A stretch of DNA of 64,000 nt from Eutreptiella sp. 'Long Island Sound 2002' (Eukaryota > Euglenozoa > Euglenophyceae > Eutreptiales > Eutreptiaceae): NCBI GenBank assembly GCA_964036045.1, contig OZ038384.1, positions 42,140,704 to 42,204,703 on the forward strand, given 5' to 3'. Both the position numbers and the translations under genes were made by a program. This document shows positions 3,935 to 45,729 of the stretch, in pieces (the first letter of the stretch is position 1; each line of letters begins with the position of its first letter). Below the pieces are notes generated by a model. That model was not told the DNA's origin. It saw only the letters and a program-made list of their open reading frames with translations, and ran no database searches.

Positions 3935-4619
3935 GGATCACATGTACCACCGGTGCCCAGCATAGAACATTGAAAGAGAGACCAATATTGTCCGGTTACC
4001 GGTGGCAATTTTAGGAAATCTGTACCGACGTGCATGCGATATGCTTCGGTCCGTCGCTTGGAAGTTTTCGAAAACCCTTGGAAAGATGCTCGGAAGTTTT
4101 GGCAGCCAGATCGGCCCCCCAAAACGCAACCGATATCGGTAGGAATGTTCCATGGGCTTCCCAGCCGACCGTGCCGGGGGAGCTCGGGAGAAATTTTTCA
4201 GCCCAAACCCAGTGGAATTTTGGTTGGATGCTTGGTGGAAAGATGCTCGGAAGTTTTGGCAGCCAGATCGGGTCCCAAAACGTAACCAATATTGGTAGGA
4301 ATGTTCCATGGGCTTCCCAGCCGACCGTGCCGGGGGAGCTGGGAAGAAATTTTTCAGCCCGAACCCAGTGGAATTTTGGTTGGATGCTTGGTGCCTACCT
4401 TGCCTGCAAGATGCCATGGAGAACAGCACGTTGAAGCTAATGTTTGTCTACCCTTTGTTTGCTTTGCCTACAAAACTGCATGGAGAACACTGTGCTCAAG
4501 CTTATGATTGCTTCCCCTTTGTGCTCCTTTGTGAATTTGGACTTTTGCTTTTGACATGTGCAACGCCAGTTTGATCCTTGGTGGCTGCTTTGCCTACAAA
4601 CGTGCATCGAGAACACTGT
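3935..4619 (+). repeat. left repeat block L of unit A
   Basis: Nearly identical to 39,146-39,677. It begins 'catgtaccaccggtgccc', contains 'tccggttaccggtggca', the 12-bp palindrome accgatatcggt, and a core 'cttggaagttttcgaaaacc' running to 'gccgggggagctcgg'. It ends with tandem modules of about 70-125 bp that start 'gcctac(a/c)..gcatggagaacac'. This copy carries an extra internal tandem duplication of about 158 bp (4,085-4,240 repeated at 4,243-4,395). The core is also shared with the R blocks at 33.3 and 45.3 kb. It is a dispersed repeat and a candidate terminal block of a large mobile element. Confidence 0.75.
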
Positions 4620-4785
4620 ACTCAAGCTTCTAAATGTTTGCCCTTTGTGCCTTGTGATGCTTTGTGCCTGCTTTTGTGGTTTTTTTTTTGCATGTGTGTC
4701 GCTTTCTCACCTAGGCCCCTTTGAGTAGACTCACTAATGTATTCCCTTTTTGTGCTCAGAACACTTTTTGTCACCTGCAACAGAC

Positions 4786-5802
4786 ATGTCTGGTAGTCAA
4801 GGCAGTGCCGCTAGTGCCTCGTCTTCGTCCGCTCAGCCCCCTCAGCCCGTTCAGCAGCTCCCGGAACCAGATTTGGAGCTTGAGGGCGAGCTCATTGACG
4901 CGGACACAGCCAATACCGAAGTTCCCGAACCGGGTGATACACAATCGCGCCTCCAACACGCCCTAGCAGCACTGTGCCTGCGGCATAAGCCGTCAGAGAC
5001 CATTGAACCCAGAATGCTAAGGGTTTTTTTGGACAGGGTCGTCCCTGATGCATACCGCATCCAGCCCAAGGATACCTTGCTGGCTATGCTTATGCATAAG
5101 CATTTTTCAATCCCTGTCTTGACGACACGGGAGGCTGTGGGCAAGACAAGCCGCAGCAAACATGAGACCTCGTACGGTGTACAATACAGAAACCTCTGCA
5201 TTGTTGGTCCCGATCGGAAATACAACACGGACCGGACCTTTGCAGAGGAATCTGAAGAGAGGCTGCGTGTACATTACATGTACTTGAAATCAATACTGTC
5301 CGCACACCCGGACAGTACCATTCGCGAGTTAAAGTGGACCCAGAGCGATGTAGTTACTTGGTTCAAAGAGGCCAAGATCAAGAAGCGGTCCAAAAAAGTA
5401 GTTTCTTGCAACGTGCAGTTCCCCCCCCTCTCATTTATTCATGTTCCGTTCGAGGTTTTGAGGGTTATCATAAACGATGCCTTCTGCGAGTCCCCACATG
5501 CAACGATTCACAGCGCCCTCAGAGCCACCATCACAGGTGCACATGTGGTAGTGGTTTTCGGGGAAAAGGACGGCTGGCGGGTGTGGGACCAAGCCCCCTC
5601 AGGCAAGTGGGAAAAGGTGGTTACCCCCCCCGACGGTGAGGTTTTCAGAACAGACCAGCAACCCACGTACCATGCGCACGGTGTCTTGTGGGGCATTGAG
5701 TTTCTTTTGGCCCCAGCCCCCAAACCTTCCTCCGAGGGCGCACCAAAGCGGCAGCGACTTACCATCTTAGGTGCATGGTTGCAGGCCAAGGGTGAGGGCT
5801 AG
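4786..5802 (+). CDS. ORF1: hypothetical protein, candidate accessory protein of giant element
   Basis: The ORF is uninterrupted, 338 aa from the ATG at 4,786, chosen because the sequence just upstream looks non-coding and includes a polypyrimidine stretch ending in CAG. The N-terminal 50 residues are rich in Ser, Pro, Gln and acidic residues. The middle (about 55-300) looks globular, with DAYRIQPKDTLLAMLMHKHF and a basic cluster AKIKKRSKK near residue 200. The C-terminus has a basic KRQR motif that could be a nuclear signal. No known domain was recognised. It lies between repeat block L and ORF2 on the same strand, about 90 bp from ORF2's likely start. I infer an accessory or DNA-binding factor, analogous in position only to the second gene of CACTA transposons. 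Confidence 0.6.
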   Translation: MSGSQGSAASASSSSAQPPQPVQQLPEPDLELEGELIDADTANTEVPEPGDTQSRLQHALAALCLRHKPSETIEPRMLRVFLDRVVPDAYRIQPKDTLLAMLMHKHFSIPVLTTREAVGKTSRSKHETSYGVQYRNLCIVGPDRKYNTDRTFAEESEERLRVHYMYLKSILSAHPDSTIRELKWTQSDVVTWFKEAKIKKRSKKVVSCNVQFPPLSFIHVPFEVLRVIINDAFCESPHATIHSALRATITGAHVVVVFGEKDGWRVWDQAPSGKWEKVVTPPDGEVFRTDQQPTYHAHGVLWGIEFLLAPAPKPSSEGAPKRQRLTILGAWLQAKGEG

Positions 5803-5891
5803 GGCCAGGTTGGGACCGCAGAAGCCCCCCCCCCCTGCCTAAGCTGGGGATGCACTGTGTTGGGTCTTCATCAGCCCTCTTTTTCGCTCTG

Positions 5892-7983
5892 ATGTCTTCC
5901 ATCTCTGCTGCCCTGGCTGCCCGCGCCGAGCCACCAGCTCCTGCCGCCGTCCCCATCTCCTCGGGTCGACTGGCCGATCTTGGGACTGGGAACCCAGCGC
6001 CGATAGCAGTGCCGGTGCCAGCAACCCTTTGCCAGCCACCCCCGCTTTGTGGGAGGCGCCAGCAGTCGGAGGAGCAGCAGGAGCAGCAGCCGCAGGGCCC
6101 GCCGCCGCAGCAGAAGATGCGGAGGACCCCAAGGGCATGCAGGCTGCCCACTGCGCAGCTTTGTTGGCGGCTGTTGCAGCTGTGCAAGTCCAGATGGTGC
6201 TTGCACAGCTGAGTAAGAAGACAGTGTCCTTGTTCGCGGCCGGGGCACGCTACGGGCCAGAGGGGGAGGGGGTGGTGGTGTGGGTCACTCGGGGGGCCGT
6301 GACCTCCCGCAGGCAAGTGGAGCATCGTGCTCCAATTGGGCAGACGCCCCCAAACGTGGCCAAGGTGGTTCTGGACGTGGCCATTTTTGACCGGAGTGTG
6401 GCAGTGTGTGGGGAGTTGGGGGTTCCGGACCAGTTGAGGAAACTGGTCCTCAAGGAGTACCGATCACCAGCCGATCGGTACTCCAAGTTGAGAGGGCAGT
6501 TTGAGCAGGCCTGCCAGTCCTTCAAGAAGGCTGAGCAGGCTGTCCGGGAGGGGCCGGGGGGGAAGAGGCAGGGGGGGCAGGGGGTGAAGAGCAGGGAGGG
6601 AAAGTTGCGGGCAGCAGCTACTGCCCAGCAGGGAAGGGCAGAGGATATGCTGGGGCATATGCGGGGGGCTTGGGAGGAGACAAAGAAACACCGCCTCCTT
6701 AAGGCCCCCCTCCCCAAGATGCCCCCCAGCACCCTCCCCCCCTTTGGGAAATGGGAGGTGACAGGGGGACACCAGGAGGAGCTCCTGCATGGGGTGGTTT
6801 TTGCAGGGACTCCTCGGGGTTGGGAGGTGTACGACCTTGCAGCTACGGCTGTTTCAAGGTCGTGCACCCAGAAGCTGAGGGACAGGGGGGTTTCGGTGAG
6901 GATGCACACCGCCCCCGACTCGTGCAACCGCCACAACTGCATGTATGTGGCGGTTAAAATAATTTTGTGGCACATGAGCCACCCTGTGGGTGTTTGGGAC
7001 ACCCCCCCCGCCCTGAGCCATTTTGCCATGTGGGGGCGCCAGTGCCGGGAGTTGTTGGACAAAACCCTGGCATGGGCTCAGGTGAAAGGGAGCTGGAAGT
7101 GCCGCCGCACTGGCTGGGGCCCTGCGGCCCTGAAGGAGATGAAAGAAGTCTCCAGGCAGCTGGCCCCAGTTGGGGGGGGCAAAGGGCCTGTCCCCTTTGC
7201 CCCCCTCTCCGGCAACATGGTACCAATTGTGGTACTTTTTTGCATCGCGAACCCTGACTCTGGCCCTGCTATCCCTGGTGTGGGTAAGGGGAAAGGGAAG
7301 GGGAAGGGGAAGGGGAAGGGGGGGGGTGATTCAGACTCTTCAGACTCTGCCCCAGAGATTGCAGTGGGTAAGGGGAAGGGGAAGGAGAAGGGTAAGGGTA
7401 AGGGGAAGGGGGGGGTGATTCGAACTCTTCAGACTCTGCCCCAGAGATTGCAGTGGGTAAGGGGAAGGGGAAGGAGAAGGGTAAGGGTAAGGGGAGGGGG
7501 AAGGGGAAGGGGAAGGAGGAGGAGGTGGTTTCAGACTCTGAGTCATCTGACTCAGACGTGCCTATTTCCTCGACAGGGGTGAGGAGAGGGCACGTGGCCC
7601 CTGAGTCATCTGACTCAGATTCCAAGGTGCCTGTTTCCTCCACAGGCGTGAAGAGAGGGCGGGCGGCCCCTGACTCTGGGGCCCCTTCAGGTAAGAGGAG
7701 GAAGAAGATCAGCCGCAGCCCATATGTAGGCTGGAGTGGAGCGGGATCAGGGGACCAGGGGTCACTGCCCCTTCGCATAGTCACACAGGTCAGGACTGTC
7801 ATTGACTATGTGAAGGGGTCTGCCCACCGACCTCGCAATTGGATGAGGTCCTTCCCCCTCATCCATGGGGGTGATTCCGGGCCAGGGGAGTTGATACTCC
7901 TCATTGTGCCCCCTGAGACCAAGGCCGAGGCCTCTCACAAGGCACAGCCTCAGCCTGAGCCTGACTCTGAGGGGGAGGACTGA
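5892..7983 (+). CDS. ORF2: hypothetical protein with GKGKGK tracts and acidic Ser/Asp tail, two apparent frameshifts
   Basis: The likely start is the ATG at 5,892 (MSSISAALAARAEPPAPAA). The frame shifts once in the C-run near 6,046 and once in a G-run near 7,410. Adding one base to each run would give one reading frame of about 697 aa. In order: Ala/Pro/Gln-rich N-terminus; a globular part with VVVWVTRGAV and LRKLVLKEYRSPADRY; a helical charged segment; a part with RHNCMYVAVKIILWHMSHP; then lysine-glycine repeats alternating with SDSSDS blocks, an NLS-like GKRRKKISRS, and an acidic end DSEGED. The lysine-rich part contains an internal tandem duplication of about 100 bp. No family was recognised. 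It ends about 115 bp before the satellite array. The frameshifts could be sequencing errors or decay. Confidence 0.55.
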
Positions 7984-8097
7984 GAGGGAGGTATATATTC
8001 CCATTCGAGGCACTGAAATGAACTGCAGCTGCACCTGAACTGCCTGTTGGCATCCATTCATGCTTCCAGCCCAGCTTGTGCTTGTTGTGCCTGTGGC

Positions 8098-11000
8098 AGG
8101 GGGCGGATAGTCGAGCACACTTTGGACCCTTGGATCTCGAAACTGGTAGGAGCAATCCTGGCAAAAGAAGGTTCTGGTGAAAGGTACTGGTTGGGGCTTT
8201 CCATACATGGTTTCCTTGAAACCTACCAAAACAGTGGCGCAGAGTGAGGGGGCGGATAGTCGAGCACACTTTGGACCCTTGGATCTCGAAGCTGGTTGGA
8301 GCAATCCTGGCAAATGAAGGTTCTGGTGAAAGGTATTGGTTGGGGCTTTCCATACATGGTTTCCTTGAAACCTACCAAAACAGTGGCGCAGAGTGAGGGG
8401 GCGGATAGTCGAGCACACTTTGGACCCTTGGATCTCGAAACTGGTTGGAGCAATCGTGGCAAAAAAAGGTTCTGGTGACAGGTACTGGTTGGGGCTTTCC
8501 ATACATGGTTTCCTTGAAACCTACCAAAACAGTGGCGCAGAGTGAGGGGGCGGATAGTTGAGCACACTTCGGACCCTTGGATCTCGAAACTGGTAGGAGC
8601 AATCCTGGCAAAAGAAGGTTCTGGTGAAAGGTACTGGTTGGGGCTTTCCATACATGGTTTCCTTGAAACCAACCAAAACAGTGGCGCAGAGGGAAGGGGC
8701 GGATAGTCGAGCACACTTTGGACCCTTGGATCTCGAAACTGGTTGGAGCAATCCTGGCAAAAAAAGGTTCTGGTGAAAGGTACTGGTTGGGGCTTTCCAT
8801 ACATGGTTTCCTTGAAACCTACCAAAACAGTGGCGCAGAGTGAGGGGGCGGATAGTTGAGCACACTTCGGACCCTTGGATCTCGAAACTGGTAGGAGCAA
8901 TCCTGGCAAAAGAAGGTTCTGGTGAAAGGTACTGGTTGGGGCTTTCCATACATGGTTTCCTTGAAACCAACCAAAACAGTGGCGCAGAGGGAGGGGGCGG
9001 ATAGTCGAGCACACTTTGGACCCTTGGATCTCGAAACGGGTTGGAGCAATATTGGCAAAAAAAGGTTCTGGTGAAAGGTACTGGTTGGGGCTTTCCATAC
9101 ATGGTTTCCTTGAAACCTACCAAAACAGTGGCGCAGAGTGAGGGGGCGGATAGTCGAGCACACTTTGGACCCTTAGATCTCGAAACTTGTTGGAGCAATC
9201 CTGGCAAAAGAAGGTTCTGGTGACAGGTACTGGTTGGGGCTTTCCAAACATGGTTTCCTTGAAACCTACCAAAACGGTGGCGCAGAGTGAGGGGGCGGAT
9301 AGTCGAGCACACTTTGGACCCTTGGATCTCGAAACTGGTTGGAGCAATCCTGGCAAAAAAAGGTTCTGGTGAAAGGTACTGGTTGGGGCTTTCCATACAT
9401 GGTTTCCTTGAAACCAACCAATACAGTGGCGCAGAGGGAGGGGGCGGATAGTCGAGCACACTTTGGACCCTTGGATCTCGAAACTGGTTGGAGCAATCCT
9501 AGCAAAAGAAGGTTCTAGTGAAAGGTACTGGTTGGGGCTTTCCATACATGGTTTCCTTGAAACCAACCAAAACAGTGGCGCAGAGGGAGGGGGCGGATAG
9601 TCGAGCACACTTTGGACCCTTGGATCTCGAAACTGGTTGGAGCAATCCTGGCAAAAAAAGGTTCTGGTGAAAGGTACTGGTTGGGGCTTTCCATACATGG
9701 TTTCCTTGAAACCTACCAAAACAATGGCGCAGAGTGAGGGGGCGGATAGTCGAGCACACTTTGGACCCTTGGATCTCGAAACTGGTTGGAGCAATCCTGG
9801 CAAAAGAAGGTTCTGGTGAAAGGTACTGGTTGGGGCTTTCCATACATGGTTTCCTTGAAACCAACCAAAACAGTGGCGCAGAGGGAGGGGGCGGATAGTC
9901 GAGCACACTTTGGACCCTTAGATCTCGAAACTGGTTGGAGCAATCCTGGCAAAAAAAGGTTCTTGTGAAAGGTATTGGTTGGGGCTTTCCATACATGGTT
10001 TCCTTGAAACCTACCAAAACAGTGGCGCAGAGTGAGGGGGCGGATAGTCGAGCACACTTTGGACCCTTAGATCTCGAAACTGGTTGGAGCAATCCTGGCA
10101 AAAGAAGGTTCTGGTGACAGGTACTGGCTGGGGCTTTCCATACATGGTTTCCTTGAAACCTACCAAAACAGTGGCGCAGAGTGAGGGGGCGGATAGTCGA
10201 GCACACTTTGGACCCTTGGATCTCGAAACTGGTTGGAGCAATCCTGGCAAAAAAAGGTTCTGGTGAAAGGTACTGGTTGGGGCTTTCCATACATGGTTTC
10301 CTTGAAACCAACCAAAACAGTGGCGCAGAGGGAGGGGGCGGATAGTGGAGCACACTTTGGACCCTTGGATCTCGAAACTGGTTGGAGCAATCCTAGCAAA
10401 AGAAGGTTCTAGTGAAAGGTACTGGTTGGGGCTTTCCATACATGGTTTCCTTGAAACCAACCAAAACAATGGCGCAGAGTGAGGGGGCGGATAGTCGAGC
10501 ACACTTTGGACCCTTGGATCTCGAAACTGGTTGGAGCAATCCTAGCAAAAGAAGGTTCTGGTGAAAGGTACTGGTTGGGGCTTTCCATACATGGTTTCCT
10601 TGAAACCAACCAAAACAGTGGCGCAGAGGGAGGGGGCGGATAGTCGAGCACACTTTGGACCCTTGGATCTCGAAACTGGTTGGAGCAATCCTGGCAAAAA
10701 AAGGTTCTGGTGAAAGGTACTGGTTGGGGCTTTCCATACATGGTTTCCTTGAAACCTACCAAAACAGTCGCGCAGAGTGAGGGGGCGGATAGTCGAGCAC
10801 ACTTTGGACCCTTAGATCTCGAAACTGGTTGGAGCAATCCTGGCAAAAAAAGGTTCCGGTGAAAGGTACTGGTTGGGGCTTTCCATACATGGTTTCCTTG
10901 AAACCTACCAAAACAGTGGCGCAGAGTGAGGGGGCGGATAGTCGAGCACACTTTGGACCCTTGGATCTCGAAACTGGTTGGAGCAATCCTGGCAAATGAA

Positions 11001-14000
11001 GGTTCTGGTGAAAGGTACTGGTTGGGGCTTTCCATACATGGTTTCCTTGAAACCTACCAAAACAGTGGCGCAGAGTGAGGGGGCAGATAGTCGAGCACAC
11101 TTTGGACCCTTGGATCTCGAAACTGGTTGGAGCAATCCTGGCGAAAGAAGGTTCTGGTGAAAGGTACTGGTTGGGGCTTTCCATACATGGTTTCCTTGAA
11201 ACCTACCAAAACAGTGGCGCAGAGTGAGGGGGCGGATAGTCGAGCACACTTTGGACCCTTGGATCTCGAAACTGGTTGGAGCAATCCTGGCAAAAAAAGG
11301 TTCTGGTGAAAGGTACTGGTTGGGGCTTTCCATACATGGTTTCCTTGAAACCTACCAAAACAGTGGCGCAGAGTGAGGGGGCGGATAGTCGAGCACACTT
11401 TGGACCCTTGGATCTCGAAACTGGTAGGAGCAATCCTGGCAAAAGAAGGTTCTGGTGAAAGGTACTCGTTGGGGCTTTCCATACATGGTTTCCTTGAAAC
11501 CTACCAAAACAGTGGCGCAGAGTGAGGGGGCGGATAGTCGAGCACACTTTGGACCCTTGGATCTCGAAACTGGTTGGAGCAATCCTGGCAAATGAAGGTT
11601 CTGGTGAAAGGTATTGGTTGGGGCTTTCCATACATGGTTTCCTTGAAACCTACCAAAACAGTGGCGCAGAGTGAGGGGGCGGATAGTCGAGCACACTTTG
11701 GACCCTTGGATCTCGAAACTGGTTGGAGCAATCCTGGCAAAAAAAGGTTCTGGTGAAAGGTACTGGTTGGGGCTTTCCATACATGGTTTCCTTGAAACCT
11801 ACCAAAACAGTGGCGCAGAGTGAGGGGGCGGATAGTCGAGCACACTTTGGACCCTTGGATCTCGAAACTGGTAGGAGCAATCCTGGCAAAAGAAGGTTCT
11901 GGTGAAAGGTACTGGTTGGGGCTTTCCATACATGGTTTCCTTGAAACCTACCAAAACAGTGGCGCAGAGTGAGGGGGCGGATAGTCGAGCACACTTTGGA
12001 CCCTTGGATCTCGAAACTGGTTGGAGCAATCCTGGCAAATGAAGGTTCTGGTGAAAGGTATTGGTTGGGGCTTTCCATACATGGTTTCCTTGAAACCTAC
12101 CAAAACAGTGGCGCAGAGTGAGGGGGCGGATAGTCGAGCACACTTTGGACCCTTGGATCTCGAAACTGGTTGGAGCAATCCTGGCAAAAAAAGGTTCTGG
12201 TGACAGGTACTGGTTGGGGCTTTCCATACATGGTTTCCTTGAAACCAACCAAAACAGTGGCGCAGAGGGAGGGGGCGGATAGTCGAGCACACTTTGGACC
12301 CTTGGATCTCGAAACTGGTTGGAGCAATCCTGGCAAAAAAAGGTTCTGGTGAAAGGTACTGGTTGGGGCTTTCCATACATGGTTTCCTTGAAACCAACCA
12401 AAACAGTCGCGCAGAGTGAGGGGGCGGATAGTCGAGCACACTTTGGACCCTTAGATCTCGAAACTGGTTGGAGCAATCCTGGCAAAAAAAGGTTCTGGTG
12501 AAAGGTACTGGTTGGGGCTTTCCATACATGGTTTCCTTGAAACCTACCAAAACAGTGGCGCAGAGTGAGGGGGCGGATAGTCGAGCACACTTTGGACCCT
12601 TGGATCTCGAAACTGGTTGGAGCAATCCTGGCAAATGAAGGTTCTGGTGAAAGGTACTGGTTGGGGCTTTCCATACATGGTTTCCTTGAAACCTACCAAA
12701 ACAGTGGCGCAGAGTGAGGGGGCGGATAGTCGAGCACACTTTGGACCCTTGGATCTCGAAACTGGTTGGAGCAATCCTGGCAAATGAAGGTTCTGGTGAA
12801 AGGTACTGGTTGGGGCTTTCCATACATGGTTTCCTTGAAACCTACCAGAACAGTGCCGCAGAGTGAGGGGGCAGATAGTCGAGCACACTTTGGACCCTTG
12901 GATCTCGAAACTGGTTGGAGCAATCCTGGCGAAAGAAGGTTCTGGTGAAAGGTACTGGTTGGGGCTTTCCATACATGGTTTCCTTGAAACCTACCAAAAC
13001 AGTGGCGCAGAGTGAGGGGGCGGATAGTCGAGCACACTTTGGACCCTTGGATCTCGAAACTGGTTGGAGCAATCCTGGCAAAAAAAGGTTCTGGTGAAAG
13101 GTACTGGTTGGGGCTTTCCATACATGGTTTCCTTGAAACCTACCAAAACAGTGGCGCAGAGTGAGGGGGCGGATAGTCGAGCACACTTTGGACCCTTGGA
13201 TCTCGAAACTGGTAGGAGCAATCCTGGCAAAAGAAGGTTCTGGTGAAAGGTACTGGTTGGGGCTTTCCATACATGGTTTCCTTGAAACCTACCAATACAG
13301 TGGCGCAGAGTGAGGGGGCGGATAGTCGAGCACACTTTGGACCCTTGGATCTCGAAACTGGTTGGAGCAATCCTGGCAAATGAAGGTTCTGGTGAAAGGT
13401 ATTGGTTGGGGCTTTCCATACATGGTTTCCTTGAAACCTACCAAAACAGTGGCGCAGAGTGAGGGGGCGGATAGTCGAGCACACTTTGGACCCTTGGATC
13501 TCGAAACTGGTTGGAGCAATCCTGGCAAAAAAGGGTTCTGGTGACAGGTACTGGTTGGGGCTTTCCATACATGGTTTCCTTGAAACCAACCAAAACAGTG
13601 GCGCAGAGGGAGGGGGCGGATAGTCGAGCACACTTTGGACCCTTGGATCTCGAAACTGGTTGGAGCAATCCTGGCAAAAAAAGGTTCTGGTGAAAGGTAC
13701 TGGTTGGGGCTTTCCATACATGGTTTCCTTGAAACCTACCAAAACAGTGGCGCAGAGTGAGGGGGCGGATAGTCGAGCACACTTTGGACCCTTGGATCTC
13801 GAAACTGGTTGGAGCAATCCTAGCAAATGAAGGTTCTGGTGAAAGGTATTGGTTGGGGCTTTCCATACATGGTTTCCTTGAAACCTACCAAAACAGTGGC
13901 GCAGAGTGAGGGGGCGGATAGTCGAGCACACTTTGGACCCTTGGATCTCGAAACTGGTTGGAGCAATCCTGGCAAAAAAAGGTTCTGGTGACAGGTACTG

Positions 14001-17000
14001 GTTGGGGCTTTCCATACATGGTTTCCTTGAAACCAACCAAAACAGTGGCGCAGAGGGAGGGGGCGGATAGTCGAGCACACTTTGGACCCTTGGATCTCGA
14101 AACTGGTTGGAGCAATCCTGGCAAAAAAAGGTTCTGGTGAAAGGTACTGGTTGGGGCTTTCCATACATGGTTTCCTTGAAACCTACCAAAACAGTGGCGC
14201 AGAGTGAGGGGGCGGATAGTCGAGCACACTTTGGACCCTTGGATCTCGAAACTGGTTGGAGCAATCCTGGCAAAAAAAGGTTCTGGTGAAAGGTACTGGT
14301 TGGGGCTTTCCATACATGGTTTCCTTGAAACCTACCAAAACAGTGGCGCAGAGTGAGGGGGCGGATAGTCGAGCACACTTTGGACCCTTGGATCTCGAAA
14401 CTGGTAGGAGCAATCCTGGCAAAAGAAGGTTCTGGTGAAAGGTACTGGTTGGGGCTTTCCATACATGGTTTCCTTGAAACCTACCAATACAGTGGCGCAG
14501 AGTGAGGGGGCGGATAGTCGAGCACACTTTGGACCCTTGGATCTCGAAACTGGTTGGAGCAATCCTGGCAAATGAAGGTTCTGGTGAAAGGTATTGGTTG
14601 GGGCTTTCCATACATGGTTTCCTTGAAACCTACCAAAACAGTGGCGCAGAGTGAGGGGGCGGATAGTCGAGCACACTTTGGACCCTTGGATCTCGAAACT
14701 GGTTGGAGCAATCCTGGCAAAAAAGGGTTCTGGTGACAGGTACTGGTTGGGGCTTTCCATACATGGTTTCCTTGAAACCAACCAAAACAGTGGCGCAGAG
14801 GGAGGGGGCGGATAGTCGAGCACACTTTGGACCCTTGGATCTCGAAACTGGTTGGAGCAATCCTGGCAAAAAAAGGTTCTGGTGAAAGGTACTGGTTGGG
14901 GCTTTCCATACATGGTTTCCTTGAAACCTACCAAAACAGTGGCGCAGAGTGAGGGGGCGGATAGTCGAGCACACTTTGGACCCTTGGATCTCGAAACTGG
15001 TTGGAGCAATCCTGGCAAATGAAGGTTCTGGTGAAAGGTATTGGTTGGGGCTTTCCATACATGGTTTCCTTGAAACCTACCAAAACAGTGGCGCAGAGTG
15101 AGGGGGCGGATAGTCGAGCACACTTTGGACCCTTGGATCTCGAAACTGGTTGGAGCAATCCTGGCAAAAAAAGGTTCTGGTGACAGGTACTGGTTGGGGC
15201 TTTCCATACATGGTTTCCTTGAAACCTACCAAAACAGTGGCGCAGAGTGAGGGGGCGGATAGTCGAGCACACTTTGGACCCTTAGATCTCGAAACTGGTA
15301 GGAGCAATCCTGGCAAAAGAAGGTTCTGGTGACAGGTACTGGTTGGGGCTTTCCATACATGGTTTCCTTGAAACCAACCAAAACAGTGGCGCAGAGGGAG
15401 GGGGCGGATAGTCGAGCACACTTTGGACCCTTGGATCTCGAAACTGGTTGGAGCAATCCTGGCAAAAAAAGGTTCTGGTGAAAGGTACTGGTTGGGGCTT
15501 TCCATACATGGTTTCCTTGAAACCTACCAAAACAGTGGCGCAGAGTGAGGGGGCGGATAGTCGAGCACACTTTGGACCCTTAGATCTCGAAACTGGTAGG
15601 AGCAATCCTGGCAAAAGAAGGTTCTGGTGACAGGTACTGGTTGGGGCTTTCCATACATGGTTTCCTTGAAACCTACCAAAACAGTGGCGCAGAGTGAGGG
15701 GGCGGATAGGCGAGCACACTTTGGACCCTTGGATCTCGAAACTGGTTGGAGCAATCCTGGCAAAAAAAGGTTCTGGTGAAAGGTACTGGTTGGGGCTTTC
15801 CATACATGGTTTCCTTGAAACCAACCAAAACAGTGGCGCAGAGGGAGGGGGCGGATAGTGGAGCACACTTTGGACCCTTGGATCTCGAAACTGGTTGGAG
15901 CAATCCTAGCAAAAGAAGGTTCTAGTGAAAGGTACTGGTTGGGGCTTTCCATACATGGTTTCCTTGAAACCAACCAAAACAGTGGCGCAGAGGGAGGGGG
16001 CGGATAGTCGAGCACACTTTGGACCCTTGGATCTCGAAACTGGTTGGAGCAATCCTGGCAAAAAAAGGTTCTGGTGAAAGGTACTGGTTGGGGCTTTCCA
16101 TACATGGTTTCCTTGAAACCAACCAAAACAGTGGCGCAGAGGGAGGGGGCGGATAGTGGAGCACACTTTGGACCCTTGGATCTCGAAACTGGTTGGAGCA
16201 ATCCTAGCAAAAGAAGGTTCTAGTGAAAGGTACTGGTTGGGGCTTTCCATACATGGTTTCCTTGAAACCAACCAAAACAGTGGCGCAGAGGGAGGGGGCG
16301 GATAGTCGAGCACACTTTGGACCCTTGGATCTCGAAACTGGTTGGAGCAATCCTGGCAAAAAAAGGTTCTGGTGAAAGGTACTGGTTGGGGCTTTCCATA
16401 CATGGTTTCCTTGAAACCAACCAAAACAGTGGCGCAGAGGGAGGGGGCGGATAGTGGAGCACACTTTGGACCCTTGGATCTCGAAACTGGTTGGAGCAAT
16501 CCTAGCAAAAGAAGGTTCTAGTGAAAGGTACTGGTTGGGGCTTTCCATACATGGTTTCCTTGAAACCAACCAAAACAGTGGCGCAGAGGGAGGGGGCGGA
16601 TAGTGGAGCACACTTTGGACCCTTGGATCTCGAAACTGGTTGGAGCAATCCTAGCAAAAGAAGGTTCTAGTGAACGGTACTGGTTGGGGCTTTCCATACA
16701 TGGTTTCCTTGAAACCAACCAAAACAGTGGCGCAGAGGGAGGGGGCGGATAGTCGAGCACACTTTGGACCCTTGGATCTCGAAACTGGTTGGAGCAATCC
16801 TGGCAAAAAAAGGTTCTGGTGAAAGGTACTGGTTGGGGCTTTCCATACATGGTTTCCTTGAAACCAACCAAAACAGTGGCGCAGAGGGAGGGGGCGGATA
16901 GTGGAGCACACTTTGGACCCTTGGATCTCGAAACTGGTTGGAGCAATCCTAGCAAAAGAAGGTTCTAGTGAAAGGTACTGGTTGGGGCTTTCCATACATG

Positions 17001-30734: not shown

Positions 30735-30764
30735 CCTACTGCAATCTTCTGTTTCCCAGGCACC
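30735..30764 (+). promoter_or_regulatory. possible 3' splice site between satellite and ORF3
   Basis: The last monomer breaks off at 'aacagtggc' and is followed by a pyrimidine-rich stretch ending cttctgtttcccag, then by the ORF3 start. This resembles a spliceosomal 3' splice site, so the whole array could lie in an intron, or in the leader of ORF3. RNA data would be needed to confirm it. Confidence 0.3.
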
Positions 30765-32975
30765 ATGTTTCACCATGAATTTGTTGTGAACCACCATGCT
30801 ATATGGGTGAAGGGGGAGATCTCCAAGCTGGAGGCATTTGCCAGCATATGCCCTATTCCAGCTGATCAATTCATGGTGTCAGCATTTGCCATGAACTTCC
30901 CCACGGCCACCCCCTTGCAGGCCAAGGACCTAGACCAGCTACAGCGCCCCCGAAGTGGCACCTTCACAGTTGTGCGTAGGATCCTTGGCCCTTTGCCTAC
31001 CACACAGGCCACATCAGTCACCCAAGCACCAGAGTGCCAGGCTGCTGCACTTCGCCTTCGCCATGAGCATGTGGTGCCAGCCGCTGTCTTGCGCACCTTA
31101 GACCATCTCCCACCAGGGGTTGGTTGGTCAATGGTTGCTTTAAGGCAACAGGAGCACCTGCATCTTCCTGCAGTGGACTACTCCCTGGACAACAGGAAGT
31201 TGTTACCACAGCTGTGCCACCTACTTCTACAGAAGTGTGGCTCATTGGCTGCCCAAGGCCGGCAGAAACCCCCACCACCCCATGCCACCCTGACCTTAGG
31301 CCTCTACGCCGACGCTTACCAGCCCCGGGGCCGTCCAAATATTAACACAAAATCCAGTCTAATTGATTTCCAAGGACACTGGTTCCCAATGTCTGGCAAT
31401 ATGCCTAGGTGCACAGACATGTTGACCTGGCAAGAGCTTCCCAAGGTCAGTGATTGCCAGTGGCTACCCAAACGTGCAGAGGCCTTACAAGCCCTGCCTT
31501 CTTGTAAATTTAAGCAACGTATGAAGTATGCTGGTGCAGTGTACAACACCACCCTGCAGATAAGGCTCGGGGCAATCACTGCCGATCACCACCATTTGTG
31601 GTCTGAGTGCCGGCAAAAGGGCTGTGTGGCGTGTCCCTGGGTGAATAAGGATGGGGCGGGAGAACTCTTTTTGCACAAAGGGGGATGTCTCAATGGTGTG
31701 CGTGGGTCCCTTAAGTTTCAGGGGGTTTCTAACCTGGAAGAGGTATATATTGTGCAACCTGTATTGCACAACACCAAAGGAGCAGCCTCCAGGATCCTGG
31801 GTGTCATAGGTCGAACACTACCAGCGCCCTACAACCATGAGCTACTCCAGGTCATAGCACATGTGGCAAGGAGGTATGATCCTGGATCTTTGCCACCTGA
31901 TAGCACGCAGCACATGCGTCACGTACGAGGTAGATTTCAGGCAGGCATTAGCCTCACAGGTCGCGAGGCCCGCACAGTCATGGGCAGACTAGCAGGGGGT
32001 ATGGTGCTCCCCCTGCCTTTCCATTCCTTGGTGGTGGCATGTTGCCACATGGTGCATCTATGCTATGGTTGTAATAACCTGGCAACTGTCACATGGCAAG
32101 CTATGGGGATGTTGTACACATATAGTGTGCACATCATCCCCGAGTTTGCTGAAGAAGGTTGCACTGCAACCTTATATATGCATGGGTGGTCCCACACATG
32201 GTTTAATCCACGGACACCCATGCTGTATTCCGATGAGGCCGGCGAGCGGGATCTGAGGGTGGCTAAGAGATATGCCCCCGTCACTAGTACCAGGCAAGAT
32301 GCCAGTATTGGTGAAAGTTTGAAGCATGAGCTGTATCAGAAGTTCGTGCAGAAAAAAAAGAAGATCCCCTGTGCCAAAATTTGGGCGCCCGTGCAACGAA
32401 ACGTTGTTCTGGAGGCGTGCATGGTTGCTGCCAATGCCGTGTGGCATGTGGTCTTCCAACGCCTCTTAGAGCATTTGCTGCATTTCCAGGAGGGAGGTGG
32501 TTGCCCCCTATATATGCACCCACACACCCGTTCGGTGAAATGCGCCTTTCCAGGTGCAAATCCCGAGAGTGATGTGGTATGTGTGTGTGGGACCTGTGGC
32601 TCAAAGCGTGGTGTCCGTCAATGGGTACCACTGGACAGGGAAGCTATCTGCAAGTGGCCCAAACTGGGTTTGAAGAGCCGTGCCACATTTAAGTCCTGTG
32701 CTGCACGCCGTAAGGCGCTGAAGGACAAGGGAAAGGGTAAGGGACGTGTGGGGCCCATCCCTCAAAGCCGAGTTATCCTGCGACAGTTGATATTGTACCC
32801 CCTTCGGAGGGCGAGGACAGTGCTGCTTCATTTCAAGGTCCTACGGGTTTGAACGAGCAGCAGCGTGTTCAACCCATGAGACGTACGAAGTTGGCGCGTG
32901 TACCCATTGTTGATAGCGACAGTGAGCAGCAACTTGTGTGCCCTCGTGGCAGTGGCAGTAGCAGCAGTAACAGTA

Positions 32976-33016
<41 letters not shown>

Positions 33017-33262
33017 TGCAGTGATAGTGGGAGCAGTAGCATTCCCGAGGATAATGATTCGGATGATGATGCTTTGCACCTATGTGGTGCCTCCACAGTA
33101 AGTGCCTCAGATTCTTCCTCATCATCCATCGACAACCCTGAACCCCAACCTCAACCCAAGAAGTATCGCCGTGTGGTGGTGGATGTGGATGCCATGTCAA
33201 GCGATGGCTGTCCTTTGCAGATGCTCAGCGAAGGAGATTACAGCATTCACAGTTCAAGCTGA
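30765..33262 (+). CDS. ORF3: CACTA/EnSpm-like (Transposase_21-type) DDE transposase, one apparent frameshift
   Basis: A 695-aa ORF from the ATG at 30,765 runs into a second frame near 32,752. One extra G in the GGGG run there would extend it to about 832 aa ending at 33,262. Its layout matches CACTA transposases. LYADAYQPRG (D183) fits the first catalytic Asp. ITADHHHLWSEC (D274) is followed by C282, C287 and C290, like the D...C-C segment. LTGREARTVMGRLAGGMVLP fits the conserved mid-helix. MHGWSH then DEAGERDLRVAKR (E494) then DASIGES fits the H...E...SI end. A later CVCGTCGSKR may bind zinc. The added C-terminus is an acidic, polyserine tail. Family assignment rests on motif order seen by eye, not on a search. 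It would cut and join element ends in the nucleus. Confidence 0.55.
32955..33020 (+). repeat. (AGC)n microsatellite encoding polyserine in ORF3
   Basis: About 20 AGC/AGT triplets encode a serine run in the tail of ORF3. The same DNA read in reverse gives leucine or alanine runs, which are artefacts. Confidence 0.85.
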
Positions 33263-33301
33263 AATGAACAGGCAAGGCACTGAGCATTCACATTTCAAGC
33301 G

Positions 33302-33689
33302 TAAGTGAACGGTCATGCTCGTCTTTTTGTGTGTTTCTTTGCTGAGGTGTGGGATTTGGGAACCAAGAACGGTGTAGGTCATTGTACAAAAAACCGATGG
33401 AAAAACGCTTGGAAGTTTTCGAAAACCCTTGGAAAGATGCTCGGAAGTTGGCAGCCAGATCGGGGCCCAAAACGCAACCGATATCGGTAGGAATGTTCCA
33501 TGGGCTCCCCAGCCGACCGTGCCGGGGGAGCTCGGAAGAAATTTTGGCTGGGACTTCCGAGATCAACCCTGCAATATGAGTCCCATTTGCTGAGCATGAA
33601 TGCTGAGCATCCCCAAATATCCTGAGCAATATGCTCAGCATTTTCCTGCCATTTTTTACCTTCTATGCTGTGCGTCCGAGCACCATGTG
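33302..33689 (+). repeat. right repeat block R of unit A
   Basis: Nearly identical to 45,338-45,729. It starts 'taagtgaac(g/c)gtcatgct', has 'gtgtgggatttgggaacc', then the same core as block L including accgatatcggt and 'gaccgtgccgggggagct', then a tail specific to R blocks ('gagatcaaccctgcaatatg'). The tail carries tgctgagcat twice (33,589-33,598 and 33,601-33,610) and its reverse complement atgctcagca (33,631-33,640), so it can fold into a hairpin. It begins 40 bp after the ORF3 stop. Confidence 0.75.
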
Positions 33690-37860: not shown

Positions 37861-37893
37861 GTTGGGTACTCTCTGTGCCTGACCCTTGGGCAG

Positions 37894-38934: not shown

Positions 38935-38980
<46 letters not shown>

Positions 38981-38987: not shown

Positions 38988-39145
38988 TACACCCCTCTCC
39001 CAACTCTAGGTGGCTCCACCACAAGGCTCTAAGGTACATGCGAAGGGCACAAAGTGGTGCATACATGTGGTGGAAGGGGCTAAACTTGGTCAAAACGGGC
39101 TCAAAACGGGCTACAAACACTTGTTTGAGCATCCCAAATGGTCCG
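38988..39145 (+). mobile_element. 5' fragment of the 1-kb terminal-inverted-repeat element
   Basis: It starts with the terminal motif CTACACCCCTCTCCC right after (TA)n and matches the first about 155 bp of the elements at 51,124 and 52,796. It then breaks off where repeat block L begins. Confidence 0.65.
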
Positions 39146-39677
39146 GGATCACCACATGTACCACCGGTGCCCAGCACAGAACATTGAAAGAGAGACCAAT
39201 ATTGTCCGGTTACCGGTGGCAATTTTAGGAAATCTGTACCGACGTGCATGCGATATGCTTCGGTCCGTCGCTTGGAAGTTTTCGAAAACCCTTGGAAAGA
39301 TGCTCGGAAGTTTTGGCAGCCAGATCGGCCCCCCAAAACGCAACCGATATCGGTAGGAATGTTCCATGGGCTTCCCAGCCGACCGTGCCGGGGGAGCTCG
39401 GAAGAAATTTTTTAGCCTGAACGTAGTGGAACTTTGGTTGCATGCTTGGTGCCTACCTTGCCTGCAAGATGCCATGGAGAACAGTACGTTGAAGCTAATG
39501 TTTGTCTACCCTTTGTTTGCTTTGCCTACAAAATTGCATGGAGAACACTGTGCTCAAGCTTATGACTGCTTCCCCTTTGAGCTCCTTTGTGAATTTGCAC
39601 TTTTGGTTTTGACATGTGCAATTGCAGTTTGATCCTTGGTGCCTGCTTTGCCTACAAACTTGCATGGAGAACACTGC
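39146..39677 (+). repeat. left repeat block L of unit B
   Basis: It matches 3,935-4,619 closely in the same orientation, with the same order of parts, but lacks the 158-bp internal duplication. It ends within a 'gcatggagaacactg' module. Confidence 0.75.
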
Positions 39678-41350
39678 AGCTATGGGTATAGTAACCCAAT
39701 AGGCTATCAGACTTCAGACTTCAGACTTTTATGGACCATCACCCCCAACCCCCAACCCCCAACCCCCCAAGCCCCCCATGATAGGCCTTTGCCCCCCCCC
39801 CCCCCATATCAGACATGCGCTTTGCCCCCCACATGAGACTTGCCCCCCCCCCCTTTTCTCTTGCCCAATTCTGCACCTTGCTTCCTTGACCATGGCCGTA
39901 GGCATGAATTAGGTCTGTGAATATGAGGATAAAGAGTATTATTTATGGGGTGGGCTGGTTGCACAGTCAAGGGGGCCACCCATTCTCAGGTTGTCGGCTT
40001 CAACACCAATGTTGTTTTTAATGCGTGTGTATGTGTGTATGTGTGGGCATGCGTGGGTGTCTGTATGTTTGCTCTGGGTCCCCCTGCAAGGGGGGACTCA
40101 TCGGCTGGGCAGCTATACCCCTTAAACCCCTCCCCTCTGCTCTCGACCCCTTCCCCGACCCTCTGTTAAACAACCAGCACAAACAAAAGTCAGTTAAACA
40201 CAAGGGGGCCACTGACAGCACCGCTTTCGGAAATTTTTTTTCATTTTTGGAGAACACTTTCTTGCCTGTTAAACGGTGCTGTCTGATGGCGGGGTGCCTG
40301 GGCAGGCAGGCTTGCCTTCACTGCCCTACAGGGGGGGGGAGGAGAGGACGCCCGGGCACCCAAGGGGTCAGAGAGAGCAGGGTGGGATGTAAAAATAAAA
40401 ACTTGTAAGTTCCTCTCCACCCTCCCCGCCTGGGCGGTCCACATGGACCAACCCCTCCTGGCTTCGGCTTCCACACATTTTTAAGGACTTTAACAGGTTA
40501 GGGATGTTGCAGACAATACAATTTTCTGTGATTTGCCCTGGTGCTTTAGTTAGGAATAGCCCCTGCACTGTACCGCACCACACTGCACTACACTCCCCCC
40601 AATATCAAACTTGTCCATTGTCACCACACCCTTGAGGTGTAGAAGTGGGTTGTGGTCTTGACCCTAGCGTCTGAAACCCAACCAGTGCTTGCAACCCCTT
40701 CAATGATGGTACGTCCCCCCCCCCCCCCACCCCCCCACCCCACCCCACCCCACCCCACCCCATCTCTCTGACTCAAACCGATCGGGGGGCTCATATGTGA
40801 CTGAAGACAAGTGGGAACAGAATCCTGATGTCTGACCCAAGCAACCTCACCTGAGCTAATCGGGTCGGTTTTGCTGGTGGGGTGGGTGGGTGGGGGTTCA
40901 TCGGGTTGGGCCGGAACTGTGGAGAGGGGGGGTAGTGGGTTTCAAGTACGGCACAGCACAGCACGGCACAGCACAGCACATCACAGCACATCACAGCACA
41001 CCACAGCACAGCACAACATACAGCATAGCACAGCATATTACAGCACAACACAGCACAACACAGCCCCTACGGCCGCCCAAGAGAGCCCCCCTCCCTCCCT
41101 CCCTCCCTCCCTCCCTCCCCTCCCTCCCTCCCTCCCACCCTGTCATTTCCCTTCTTGTGTGGTGAGGTTAGGGAGGGTATGCCTGTTTTTCTTTTTCAGG
41201 TTTTCTTTTATAAGAGAGTGCTTTCCCGCTTGCCAGCTTACCAAGGTCCGAACCCCGCCAAAAAAAAATAGGAGGTATGTTACTCCGTTCCTTAGTTAGT
41301 TCCGGTGGACCCCTCTGTGAATTGTTTACCCCCCTCCGTGAATTATTCAC
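39678..41350. other. gene-free spacer of unit B with simple repeats
   Basis: This corresponds in position to the ORF1-ORF2 region of unit A, but no ORF resembling either was found. It holds C-runs at 39,795 and 39,845, a (CACCC)n tract at 40,711-40,765, a (CAGCACA)n tract at about 40,950-41,065 and a (CCCT)n tract at about 41,085-41,140. Just before the array, 41,305-41,350 carries two 'gtgaatt(g/a)tt' phrases. Confidence 0.5.
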
Positions 41351-44300
41351 AGTTTTAGAAGGCTCCAAAGTGAGCTCGACTATCCGCCCCCCTACAGGGG
41401 CCCACTGTTTCAGATTTTTACAACTAGGGGCTCTATGTAAAGCCCCAATCACCAGCTTTCACCACAACTTTGTTTTGTGGAATTTTACCACACCATCACA
41501 GAATTAGAAGGCTCCAAAGTGAGCTCGACTATCCGCCCCCCTACAGGGGCCCACTGTTTCAGATTTTTACAACTAGGGGCTCTATGTAAAGCCCCAACCA
41601 CCAGCTTTCACCACAACTTTGTTTTGTGGAAATTTACCACACCCTCACAGTTTTAGAAGGCTCCAAAGTGAGCTCGACTATCCGCCCCCCTACAGGGGCC
41701 CACTGTTTCAGATTTTCACAACTAGGGGCTCTATGTAAAGCCCCAACCACCAGCTTTCACCACAACTTTGTTTTGTGGAATTTTACCACACCATCACAGA
41801 TTTAGAAGGCTCCAAAGTGAGCTCGACTATCCGCCCCCCTACAGGGGCCCACTGTTTCAGATTTTTACAACTAGGGGCTCTATGTAAAGCCCCAATCACC
41901 AGCTTTCACCACAACTTTGTTTTGTGGAATTTTACCACACCATCACAGAATTAGAAGGCTCCAAAGTGAGCTCGACTATCCGCCCCCCTACAGGGGCCCA
42001 CTGTTTCAGATTTTTACAACTAGGGGCTCTATGTAAAGCCCCAACCACCAGCTTTCACCACAACTTTGTTTTGTGGAAATTTACCACACCATCACAGTTT
42101 TAGAAGGCTCCAAAGTGAGCTCGACTATCCGCCCCCCTACAGGGGCCCACTGTTTCAGATTTTCACAACTAGGGGCTCTATGTAAAGCCCCAACCACCAG
42201 CTTTCACCACAACTTTGTTTTGTGGAATTTTACCACACCATCACAGTTTTAGAAGGCTCCAAAGTGAGCTCGACTATCCGCCCCCCTACAGGGGCCCACT
42301 GTTTCAGATTTTTACAACTAGGGGCTCTATGTAAAGCCCCAATCACCAGCTTTCTCCACAACTTTGTTTTGTGGAAATTTACCACACCATCACAGAATTA
42401 GAAGGCTCCAAAGTGAGCTCGACTATCCGCCCCCCTACAGGGGCCCACTGTTTCAGATTTTTACAACTAGGGGCTCTATGTAAAGCCCCAACCACCAGCT
42501 TTCACCACAACTTTGTTTTGTGGAAATTTACCACACCCTCACAGTTTTAGAAGGCTCCAAAGTGAGCTCGACTATCCGCCCCCCTACAGGGGCCCACTGT
42601 TTCAGATTTTCACAACTAGGGGCTCTATGTAAAGCCCCAACCACCAGCTTTCACCACAACTTTGTTTTGTGGAATTTTACCACACCATCACAGATTTGGA
42701 AGGCTCCAAAGTGAGCTCGACTATCCGCCCCCCTACAGGGGCCCACTGTTTCAGATTTTTACAACTAGGGGCTCTATGTAAAGCCCCAATCACCAGCTTT
42801 CACCACAACTTTGTTTTGTGGAATTTTACCACACCATCACAGAATTAGAAGGCTCCAAAGTGAGCTCGACTATCCGCCCCCTTACAGGGGCCCACTGTTT
42901 CAGATTTTTACAACTAGGGGCTCTATGTAAAGCCCCAACCACCAGCTTTCACCACAACTTTGTTTTGTGGAAATTTACCACTTCCTCACAGTTTTAGAAG
43001 GCTCCAAAGTGAGCTCGACTATCCGCCCCCCTACAGGGGCCCACTGTTTCAGATTTTCACAACTAGGGGCTCTATGTAAAGCCCCAACCACCAGCTTTCA
43101 CCACAACTTTGTTTTGTGGAATTTTACCACACCATCACAGATTTAGAAGGCTCCAAAGTGAGCTCGACTATCCGCCCCCCTACAGGGGCCCACTGTTTCA
43201 GATTTTTACAACTAGGGGCTCTATGTAAAGCCCCAATCACCAGCTTTCACCACAACTTTGTTTTGTGGAATTTTACCACACCATCACAGATTTAGAAGGC
43301 TCCAAAGTGAGCTCGACTATCCGCCCCCCTACAGGGGCCCACTGTTTCAGATTTTTACAACTAGGGGCTCTATGTAAAGCCCCAACCACCAGCTTTCACC
43401 ACAACTTTGTTTTGTGGAAATTTACCACACCATCACAGTTTTAGAAGGCTCCAAAGTGAGCTCGACTATCCGCCCCCCTACAGGGGCCCACTGTTTCAGA
43501 TTTTCACAACTAGGGGCTCTATGTAAAGCCCCTACCACCAGCTTTCACCACAACTTTGTTTTGTGGAATTTTACCACACCATCACAGTTTTAGAAGGCTC
43601 CAAAGTGAGCTCGACTATCCGCCCCCCTACAGGGGCCCACTGTTTCAGATTTTTACAACTAGGGGCTCTATGTAAAGCCCCAATCACCAGCTTTCACCAC
43701 AACTTTGTTTTGTGGAATTTTACCACACCATCACAGAATTAGAAGGCTCCAAAGTGAGCTCGACTATCCGCCCCCTTACAGGGGCCCACTGTTTCAGATT
43801 TTTACAACTAGGGGCTCTATGTAAAGCCCCAACCACCAGCTTTCACCACAACTTTGTTTTGTGGAATTTTACCACACCCTCACAGTTTTAGAAGGCTCCA
43901 AAGTGAGCTCGACTATCCGCCCCCCTACAGGGGCCCACTGTTTCAGATTTTCACAACTAGGGGCTCTATGTAAAGCCCCAACCACCAGCTTTCACCACAA
44001 CTTTGTTTTGTGGAATTTTACCACACCATCACAGTTTTAGAAGGCTCCAAAGTGAGCTCGACTATCCGCCCCCCTACAGGGGCCCACTGTTTCAGATTTT
44101 TACAACTAGGGGCTCTATGTAAAGCCCCAACCACCAGCTTTCACCACAACTTTGTTTTGTGGAATTTTACCACACCCTCACAGTTTTAGAAGGCTCCAAA
44201 GTGAGCTCGACTATCCGCCCCCCTATAGGGGCCCACTGTTTCAGATTTTTACAACTAGGGGCTCTATGTAAAGCCCCAACCACCAGCTTTCACCACAACT

Positions 44301-44710
44301 TTGTTTTGTGGAAATTTACCACACCCTCACAGTTTTAGAAGGCTCCAAAGTGAGCTCGACTATCCGCCCCCCTACAGGGGCCCACTGTTTCAGATTTTCA
44401 CAACTAGGGGCTCTATGTAAAGCCCCAACCACCAGCTTTCACCACAACTTTGTTTTGTGGAATTTTACCACACCATCACAGTTTTAGAAGGCTCCAAAGT
44501 GAGCTCGACTATCCGCCCCCCTACAGGGGCCCACTGTTTCAGATTTTTACAACTAGGGGCTCTATGTAAAGCCCCAATCACCAGCTTTCACCACAACTTT
44601 GTTTTGTGGAAATTTACCACACCCTCACAGTTTTAGAAGGCTCCAAAGTGAGCTCGACTATCCGCCCCCCTACAGGGGCCCACTGTTTCAGATTTTCACA
44701 ACCAGGGGCT
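41351..44710 (-). repeat. satellite array B: about 22.5 tandem copies of a diverged 149-bp monomer, inverted relative to array A
   Basis: Monomers start at 41,357 (agaaggctccaaagtgag) and recur exactly every 149 bp to 44,635, that is 22 intervals with no net indel. The reverse complement aligns without gaps to an array A monomer: 97 of 149 positions match in a hand comparison. Conservation is concentrated at positions 1-33, about 74-108 and 131-139. A C/T marker (gattttcac against gatttttac) recurs every third monomer, so there is a 447-bp trimeric higher-order repeat. Confidence 0.95.
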
Positions 44711-44712
44711 CT

Positions 44713-45290
44713 CTCTTAACGCTCTGCCAACCCTCTCCCACCCTCTCCCAACCCTCTCCCACCCCCTCCCAACCCTCTCCCACCCCCTCCCAACCCTCTC
44801 CCACTCTCTCCCACCCTCTCCCAACCCTCTCCCACCCTCTCCCAACCCTCTCCCACCCTCTCCCAACCCTCTCCCAGCCTCTCCCAACCCTCTCCCAACC
44901 CTCTCCCACCCTCTTCCAACCCTCTCTCAACCGTCTCCCAACCCTCTCCCACCCTCTCCCAACCCTCTCCCACTCTCTCCCAACCCTCTCCCAACCCTCC
45001 CCCACTCTCTCCCACCCTCTCCCAACCCTCTCCCACCCTCTCCCAACCCTCTCCCACCCTCTCCCAACCCTCTCCCACCCTCTCCCAACCCTCTCCCACC
45101 CTCTCCCAACCCTCTCCCACCCTCTCCCAACCCTCTCCCACCCTCCCCCAACCCTCTCCCAACCGTCTCCCACCCTCTCCCAACCCTCTCTCAACCGTCT
45201 CCCAACCCTCTCCCACCCTCTCCCAACCCTCTCCCACTCTCTCCCAACCCTCTCCCAACCCTCCCCCACCCCCCCCCACCCTCTAACAAT
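44713..45290. repeat. cytosine-rich minisatellite (CCCTCTCCCAA / CCCTCTCCCAC)
   Basis: About 580 bp of alternating ccctctcccaa and ccctctcccac modules (roughly 10 and 21 bp), with longer duplicated stretches. It fuses directly to a truncated last monomer of array B. The repetitive Gly/Glu/Trp or Pro/Leu/Ser ORFs are artefacts. Confidence 0.9.
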
Positions 45291-45337
45291 GGGGCAGGGT
45301 GTCTAATCTCAGTGGATTCCGGCAGCAGTAGAGGTGT

Positions 45338-45729
45338 TAAGTGAACCGTCATGCTTGCCTTTTTGTGTGTTTCTTTGCTAAGGTGTGGGATTTGGGAACC
45401 AAGAACGGTGTAGTTCATTGTACAAAAAACCGATGGAAAAACGCCTGGAAGTTTTCGAAAACCCTTGGAAAGATGCTCGGAAGTTTTGGCAGCCGGATCG
45501 GCCCCCCAAAACGCAACCGATATCGGTAGGAATGTTCCATGGGCTTCCCAGCCGACCGTGCCGGGGGAGCTTGGAAGAAATTTTGGCTGGGACTTCCGAG
45601 ATCAACCCTGCAATATGAGTCCCATTTGCTGAGCATGAATGCTGAGCATCCCCAAATATCCTGAGCAATATGCTCAGCATTTTCCTGCCATTTTTTACCT
45701 TCTATGCTGTGCGTCCCAGCACCATGTGC
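45338..45729 (+). repeat. right repeat block R of unit B
   Basis: It matches 33,302-33,689 closely in the same orientation, including the palindrome, the core shared with L, and the tgctgagcat/atgctcagca hairpin tail. Confidence 0.75.

Follow-up and report, generated by a model that had tools for sequence, protein, structure and literature searches.

Two satellite-bearing units and their ends

The window, a 64,000-nucleotide stretch of the Eutreptiella sp. 'Long Island Sound 2002' genome (G000:C7:42140704-42204703 of a 2.28-Gb assembly), holds two units, A and B, each made of a left block (L), an array of a 149-bp satellite and a right block (R), which we interpret below as copies of one DNA transposon family. 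The L and R blocks were found by a satellite-masked self-comparison of the window, and the arrays by Tandem Repeats Finder. The features of the two units, with their target-site duplications (TSD), terminal inverted repeats (TIR) and open reading frames (ORF, lengths in amino acids, aa), are as follows.

3939..33689, + strand: unit A, 29751 bp (29.8 kb), both ends present; termini common with 18 other copies and with B; 1-bp TSD
3938: left TSD of A, T (1-bp duplication)
33690: right TSD of A, T (1-bp duplication)
3939..3967, + strand: left TIR of A, 29 bp, 21/29 matching the right one
33661..33689, - strand: right TIR of A
3939..4618, + strand: L block of A, containing a duplicated 156-bp core
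4786..5802, + strand: ORF1, from ATG; its start is the N-terminus of predicted protein P0008
about 5792..7582, + strand: ORF2, open only from 6029 in A; 701 aa open in copy L011
8098..30735, + strand: satellite of A, 149 bp x 151.9 monomers, between ORF2 and ORF3 (Tandem Repeats Finder)
30765..33259, + strand: ORF3, transposase candidate; 695 aa open to 32774, then another frame
33302..33689, + strand: R block of A (self-comparison)
39153..45728, + strand: unit B, gene-less, 6576 bp (6.6 kb); two empty sites in the window; 1-bp TSD
39152: left TSD of B, C
45729: right TSD of B, C
39153..39676, + strand: L block of B (self-comparison)
40009..41347: nested 1.34-kb repeat in B, high-copy in the genome
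41347..44712, - strand: satellite variant of B, 149 bp x 22.6, with a 3-monomer higher-order repeat (Tandem Repeats Finder)
44718..45284: CCCTCTCCCAA-type short-unit repeat in B (Tandem Repeats Finder)
45338..45728, + strand: R block of B (self-comparison)
4055-4197, 33406-33545, 39269-39411 and 45442-45584: L/R core sites with palindromes

As shown by the self-comparison, the L blocks of the two units were 97% identical in one part (3939-4237 versus 39153-39451) and 93% in another (4236-4618 versus 39293-39676), and the R blocks were 96% identical (33302-33689 versus 45338-45728), with the same order and orientation as the L pair. The original prediction, that L and R stand in equal order and orientation around each array and share a core, was thus borne out, and the core common to L and R proved to be 143 bp long and in direct orientation. 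The 12-bp palindromes GTTTTCGAAAAC and ACCGATATCGGT lie in this core and its margins and are candidate protein-binding sites.

The outermost bases common to A and B were CACATG at the start and CATGTG at the end, and these termini were present in 21/21 complete elements examined, namely A, B, 18 copies fetched from elsewhere in the genome and a second copy of B on C3. The short terminal inverted repeats that had been looked for were found as an imperfect repeat of 29 bp with 21/29 positions matching, which none of 100000 shuffles reached. The shared outermost bases and the TIR therefore set A at 3939-33689 and B at 39153-45728, slightly inside the outer limits first proposed (3935..45729), and showed that the units, described earlier as nested-looking, are separate and not nested.

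Both B and the fetched copy L020 could be compared with uninterrupted relatives of their insertion sites. The left flank of B (37525-39151) was 89.5% identical to 49610-51288, while the stretch right of B (45729/45730-45872) matched 51290-51432 and 52962-53104. The junction of B reads ...ATCAC|CACATG...CATGTG|CTTTTGG. At the same place the uninterrupted relatives have ATCATTTTTG and ATCACTTTTGG; both lack all 6.6 kb of B, with its satellite, and are one base shorter at the junction. L020 sits in a relative of a light-harvesting gene repeat, and its joined flanks ran through 49985-50462 (89.4%) and 37867-38357 (85.5%) of the window, again with one base fewer at the junction. The comparison with empty sites thus gave two paralogous ones for B and two for L020, all in the window:

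51289: empty site 1 for B, single T against the C...C of B
52962: empty site 2 for B, single C
50212: empty site for L020, inside the chlorophyll a/b-binding (Lhc)-type repeat
38108: second empty site for L020

The joined flanks of 10 other copies gave no empty site among the fetched loci and the window.

The insertion duplications sought at the outer borders were also found, and they were a single base long. The base before CACATG equalled the base after CATGTG in 20 of the 21 complete elements. Agreement over 2, 3, 4 and 5 bp occurred in 0, 1, 0 and 0 of the 21, which ruled out a target duplication of any of these lengths. With the empty sites, the TIR and this duplication, L and R were confirmed as the ends of an element.

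Copies in the genome, the satellite and the subfamily of B

A search of the assembly with L returned 1581 first-look candidates, and L was thus found to be high-copy. The best 40 of these were scored, with A among them; they were 99-100% identical over nearly the whole query and started within window positions 3935-3939. For 20 of the best 40 matches 10-kb stretches were fetched, and eight of these were supplemented by short pieces of the right end. Both ends were obtained, with R found, in 18/20 copies; the right end of L009 was masked, and L019 had no right end in its stretch. The 18 copies with both ends were 3816-11948 bp long, and the gene-keeping ones showed the order ORF1, ORF2, array, ORF3, R. 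In 16/20 the array lay downstream of L in one orientation, with 3-16 monomers as against about 152 in A, and in 4/4 array-bearing copies checked the transition from array to ORF3 fell at monomer position 134. These results supported a fixed order around the 149-bp satellite (L then array in 16/20, R in 18/20) and the placement of the satellite inside the element. The family had also been called giant, which is true of A at 29.8 kb, but not of the 18 other two-ended copies (3.8-11.9 kb); A is giant because its single array has expanded.

Nine of the 20 fetched copies (L009, L011-L013, L017, L018, L022, L023 and L026) carried a roughly 2.1-kb spacer containing additional open frames, flanked by two arrays in eight of the nine; L018 was without the first array. 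L016 kept a spacer remnant, and A, L010, L014, L020, L021, L024 and L027 had no spacer. In L011 the spacer (L011:5729-7815) adjoins 149-bp arrays, which come after ORF2 and after the last spacer frame. Its putative coding frames from ATG are 179, 176 and 416 aa long, and Pfam gave no match for the spacer frames. A single monomer piece within the spacer (L011 6530-6615) follows the first frames and overlaps the start of the 416-aa frame.

The consensus monomers of A and B were of equal length and aligned without gaps at 65% identity (97/149; next best shift or strand 59/149). They had been taken as one 149-bp family, which holds for the length and the gapless alignment, and less well for monomers only 65% identical. 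The arrays were oppositely oriented, as had been noted before, and the higher-order repeat was clear at three monomers in B and barely visible in A. While the L and R blocks of A and B differed by 3-7%, the satellites were only 65% identical; since the satellites are so much more diverged than the ends, either the cassette was exchanged or the satellite evolves much faster. Long minus-strand ORFs also run in the array. Stop trinucleotides on that strand number one in the consensus of A and four in that of B, and these ORFs, not being conserved, were treated as chance.

A query containing the nested repeat of B (40009-41347) gave 3895 first-look candidates, of which 40 were scored. At eight loci with this repeat, an L block and/or B-type satellite lay alongside in L037 (the window itself), L038 and L043, and at the remaining five (L039-L042 and L044) neither L nor the 149-bp satellite was found within 1.5-kb flanks. 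L038 (C3:102.12-102.13 Mb) is the second B copy, whose ends were read and showed an a/a 1-bp duplication. Three further places that combine parts of B, C1:63.23 Mb, C5:36.71 Mb and C22:15.77 Mb, are probably more B copies. When the interior of B was compared with the fetched copies L001-L036, the satellite alone matched, at about 69-75% and reversed. B is a member of a gene-less subfamily with its own reversed satellite. The earlier view of B as a gene-less derivative was right as to the lack of genes and the shared ends, but a simple gene deletion of A would not account for its own satellite variant and nested 1.34-kb repeat.

Genes of the element and neighbouring sequences

The three plus-strand ORFs predicted for A are present, but A is not the intact autonomous element it was proposed to be. 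Its ORF3 is frameshifted near 32774 relative to the 827-aa protein P0001, and compared with P0019 an in-frame stop interrupts its ORF2; in L011, ORF1 (351 aa) and ORF2 (701 aa) are both open. The close relatives of ORF3 fell in protein clusters P0001 (157 members) and P0005 (121), with many diverged relatives at >=51% identity and one, P0017, at 37%, while ORF2 clusters had up to 179 members (P0019). In P0008 the ORF1 and ORF3 of one contig are joined in one predicted protein, which fits both lying in one element.

The likeness of ORF3 to a transposase was seen at the motif level only. In P0001 numbering the motif consists of D183, D274, C287-x2-C290, H473-x3-H477 and E491. Among alignment rows with a residue at the position, conservation was 24/29 for D183, 26/31 for D274, 30/31 for C290, 33/39 for H473, 36/38 for H477 and 37/38 for E491, and C287 was kept in 11/13 covering rows. 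All motif residues were retained in the 37%-identical P0017. D183, D274 and E491 may be the catalytic acidic residues. ORF1 and ORF2 had no convincing Pfam family, with weak unrelated matches only, and the AlphaFold model of the ORF2 relative P0019 had a predicted local distance difference test score (pLDDT) of 31. An Ulp1-like protease, considered for ORF2 or ORF1 on a motif, was rejected: Pfam gave nothing beyond weak unrelated matches, and ORF1 and ORF2 shared only short weak stretches.

Several other repeats lie near the units. The stretches 37525-39151 and 49610-51288 are duplicated Lhc gene fragments, placed C-terminus to N-terminus in the manner of polyprotein light-harvesting genes, and B and L020 are both inserted in relatives of this repeat. 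The best match of the Lhc-type gene was to chains named LHCI in PDB entry 9vfj, which we take to be from Euglena. Adjoining the Lhc repeats is a duplicated segment (51106-52172 versus 52778-53847, 83% identical), accompanied by an inverted 220-bp piece (52164-52383 versus 52568-52787, 97%). The window ends in a 49-bp tandem repeat of 29 copies, rich in GGCCCCCGCCGCATGGGCGAGGG (62567-63998).

A probable transposon family that carries a satellite

At the sequence level the hallmarks of a cut-and-paste transposon are present here: dispersed copies, sharp ends that form a TIR, a duplication of the target, and empty sites. From the sequence comparisons we consider it probable, at roughly 0.85, that A and B are members of a single high-copy cut-and-paste DNA transposon family and that the satellite moves with the element. 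The original prediction was largely right. Support is good for the element family, for its ends and for the 1-bp footprint, while the assignment of the transposase rests on the motif. A target duplication of 1 bp is shorter than is usual for cut-and-paste elements.

The proposed mechanism is as follows. ORF3 would act as a DDE transposase. It would bind the element ends together with the core repeats of L and R, cleave before CAC and transfer both strands to target positions one base apart, so that gap filling would leave the 1-bp duplication; ORF1 and ORF2 would be accessory genes. The 149-bp satellite is a tandem repeat of variable copy number carried between the genes of the element. The longer copies have an array - spacer - array arrangement, with further open frames in the spacer, and recombination between the two direct arrays could remove the spacer. 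The one array left might then grow or shrink through unequal exchange or slippage, and in A it would have reached about 152 monomers. The gene-less B subfamily would presumably be mobilised in trans through the shared ends.

Several observations weigh against this interpretation, most of them on the side of the transposase. ORF3 matched no Pfam family at E <= 1, and 17 of its relatives searched at E <= 10 gave only weak unrelated families (best E 0.059). By sequence, ORF3 matched only prohibitins in the PDB (E 0.42-0.54), and its profile found no PDB chain at E <= 1 or E <= 10. Its AlphaFold model was poor (pLDDT 46), and Foldseek returned no match at E <= 0.001. As to the copies, the 20 fetched ones are young by choice, being taken from the 40 best-scoring of 1581 candidates, and older copies are unrepresented among them. 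No array was seen in the stretches of L015, L019, L025 and L028 (that of L019 being incomplete), about 5 kb inside L025 matched neither the other fetched loci nor the window, and L028, a complete copy, has no duplication (g/t).

Among the alternatives, the one that fares best gives the satellite a working role that the element needs, for instance as a boundary, RNA-processing or transposase-binding repeat; the monomer would then stay fixed at 149 bp even as its sequence changes. At 65% identity the monomers of A and B do still align gaplessly over 149 bp, while L and R are 93-97% identical. In L011 arrays stand behind ORF2 and behind the last spacer frame, a monomer piece stands just after the first spacer frames, and ORF3 of A starts about 30 bp past the array, beside a pyrimidine-rich CAG. 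However, arrays range from 3 to about 152 monomers, and 4/20 stretches show no array. We regard such a role as possible but doubtful.

Joining of the ends without any duplication, as in crypton-, Helitron- or Spy-like elements, would make the matching base a matter of chance or of a variable terminus. One base is the smallest possible footprint, and L028 lacks even that. However, the 20/21 matches at the junction contrast with 2-8/21 at neighbouring offsets used as a control, and each of four empty-site comparisons (two insertions x two sites) showed exactly one extra base. The termini are inverted repeats. On either side of the element the same base is read on one strand, rather than its complement, which indicates a target duplication and not a variable terminus. 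We consider this alternative very improbable. Slightly less probable still is that L, R and the satellite are independent dispersed repeats in chance order, the satellite being ordinary genomic satellite DNA invaded by repeats: a core is common to L and R, the satellites of A and B are 65% identical and run in opposite directions, and few of the many places with B-type satellite were checked for L and R, but this was rejected through the two paralogous sites that lack B as one piece, satellite included, the constant array orientation in 16/20 copies chosen by L alone, the fixed array exit in the four copies checked and the 1-bp duplications that bracket the whole L...R unit.

Within the reading of A and B as one transposon family, we lean slightly towards a more specific proposal, that they represent a distinct DDE lineage, possibly of superfamily rank, allied to the EnSpm/Transib/RAG1 clade. 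Its transposase would join the ends one base apart, and its coding members would have their genes separated by a length-conserved 149-bp satellite, making the family both a mobile element and a satellite source. The EnSpm/Transib/RAG1-type clade gave rise to V(D)J recombination. Because the TSD is as wide as the two strand-transfer reactions are apart, a DDE transposase with a 1-bp stagger would widen the known range of this clade. The family would also show satellite DNA moving as cargo. Its near-identical ends with arrays of 3 to about 152 monomers form a natural series for transposon-borne repeat expansion, which bears on how satellites may spread and renew in large algal-type genomes.

Phrase searches of the literature for a 1-bp target duplication found none of this kind and one unrelated LINE-1 match, with most subscription papers and Repbase outside their scope. 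No such family appeared in the titles and abstract beginnings of the Euglena gracilis DNA-transposon literature that were examined. Spy elements are DNA transposons with a PIF/Harbinger-related transposase; they resemble the present family in their minimal insertion footprint but differ in that transposase and in that they are not known to leave any target duplication. Crypton and Helitron elements likewise are not known to duplicate their target on insertion, and they were ruled out by the 1-bp duplication in 20/21 and the inverted-repeat termini.

Internal tandem repeats are found in the Tetris/DAIBAM foldback elements of Drosophila virilis, where satellite-like repeats of about 220 bp within a DNA transposon can form long arrays (PMC4079207). 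Those repeats lie in the TIRs and in separate satellite arrays, whereas the present family has its repeats between genes, surrounded by a coding element and all pointing the same way in the copies examined. A further likeness is to the CMCT clade (EnSpm/CACTA, Transib and relatives), characterised in PMC12730594 by 5'-CA...TG-3' termini and a 2-5 bp target duplication. The termini here, CACATG...CATGTG, are of this type, there are gene-bearing and gene-less members, and the D-D-C(2)C-H(3)H-E pattern of acidic, Cys and His residues in ORF3 matches the EnSpm/Transib/RAG1-type transposases described there. The family differs in its satellite arrays between genes, in an ORF3 without detectable match to Pfam families and in its 1-bp TSD as against 2-5 bp, the last of which joins the points of doubt given above. 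As the motif and termini fit and the duplication does not, ORF3 is proposed to work like a CMCT-type transposase, and the family is not filed as a member of that clade.

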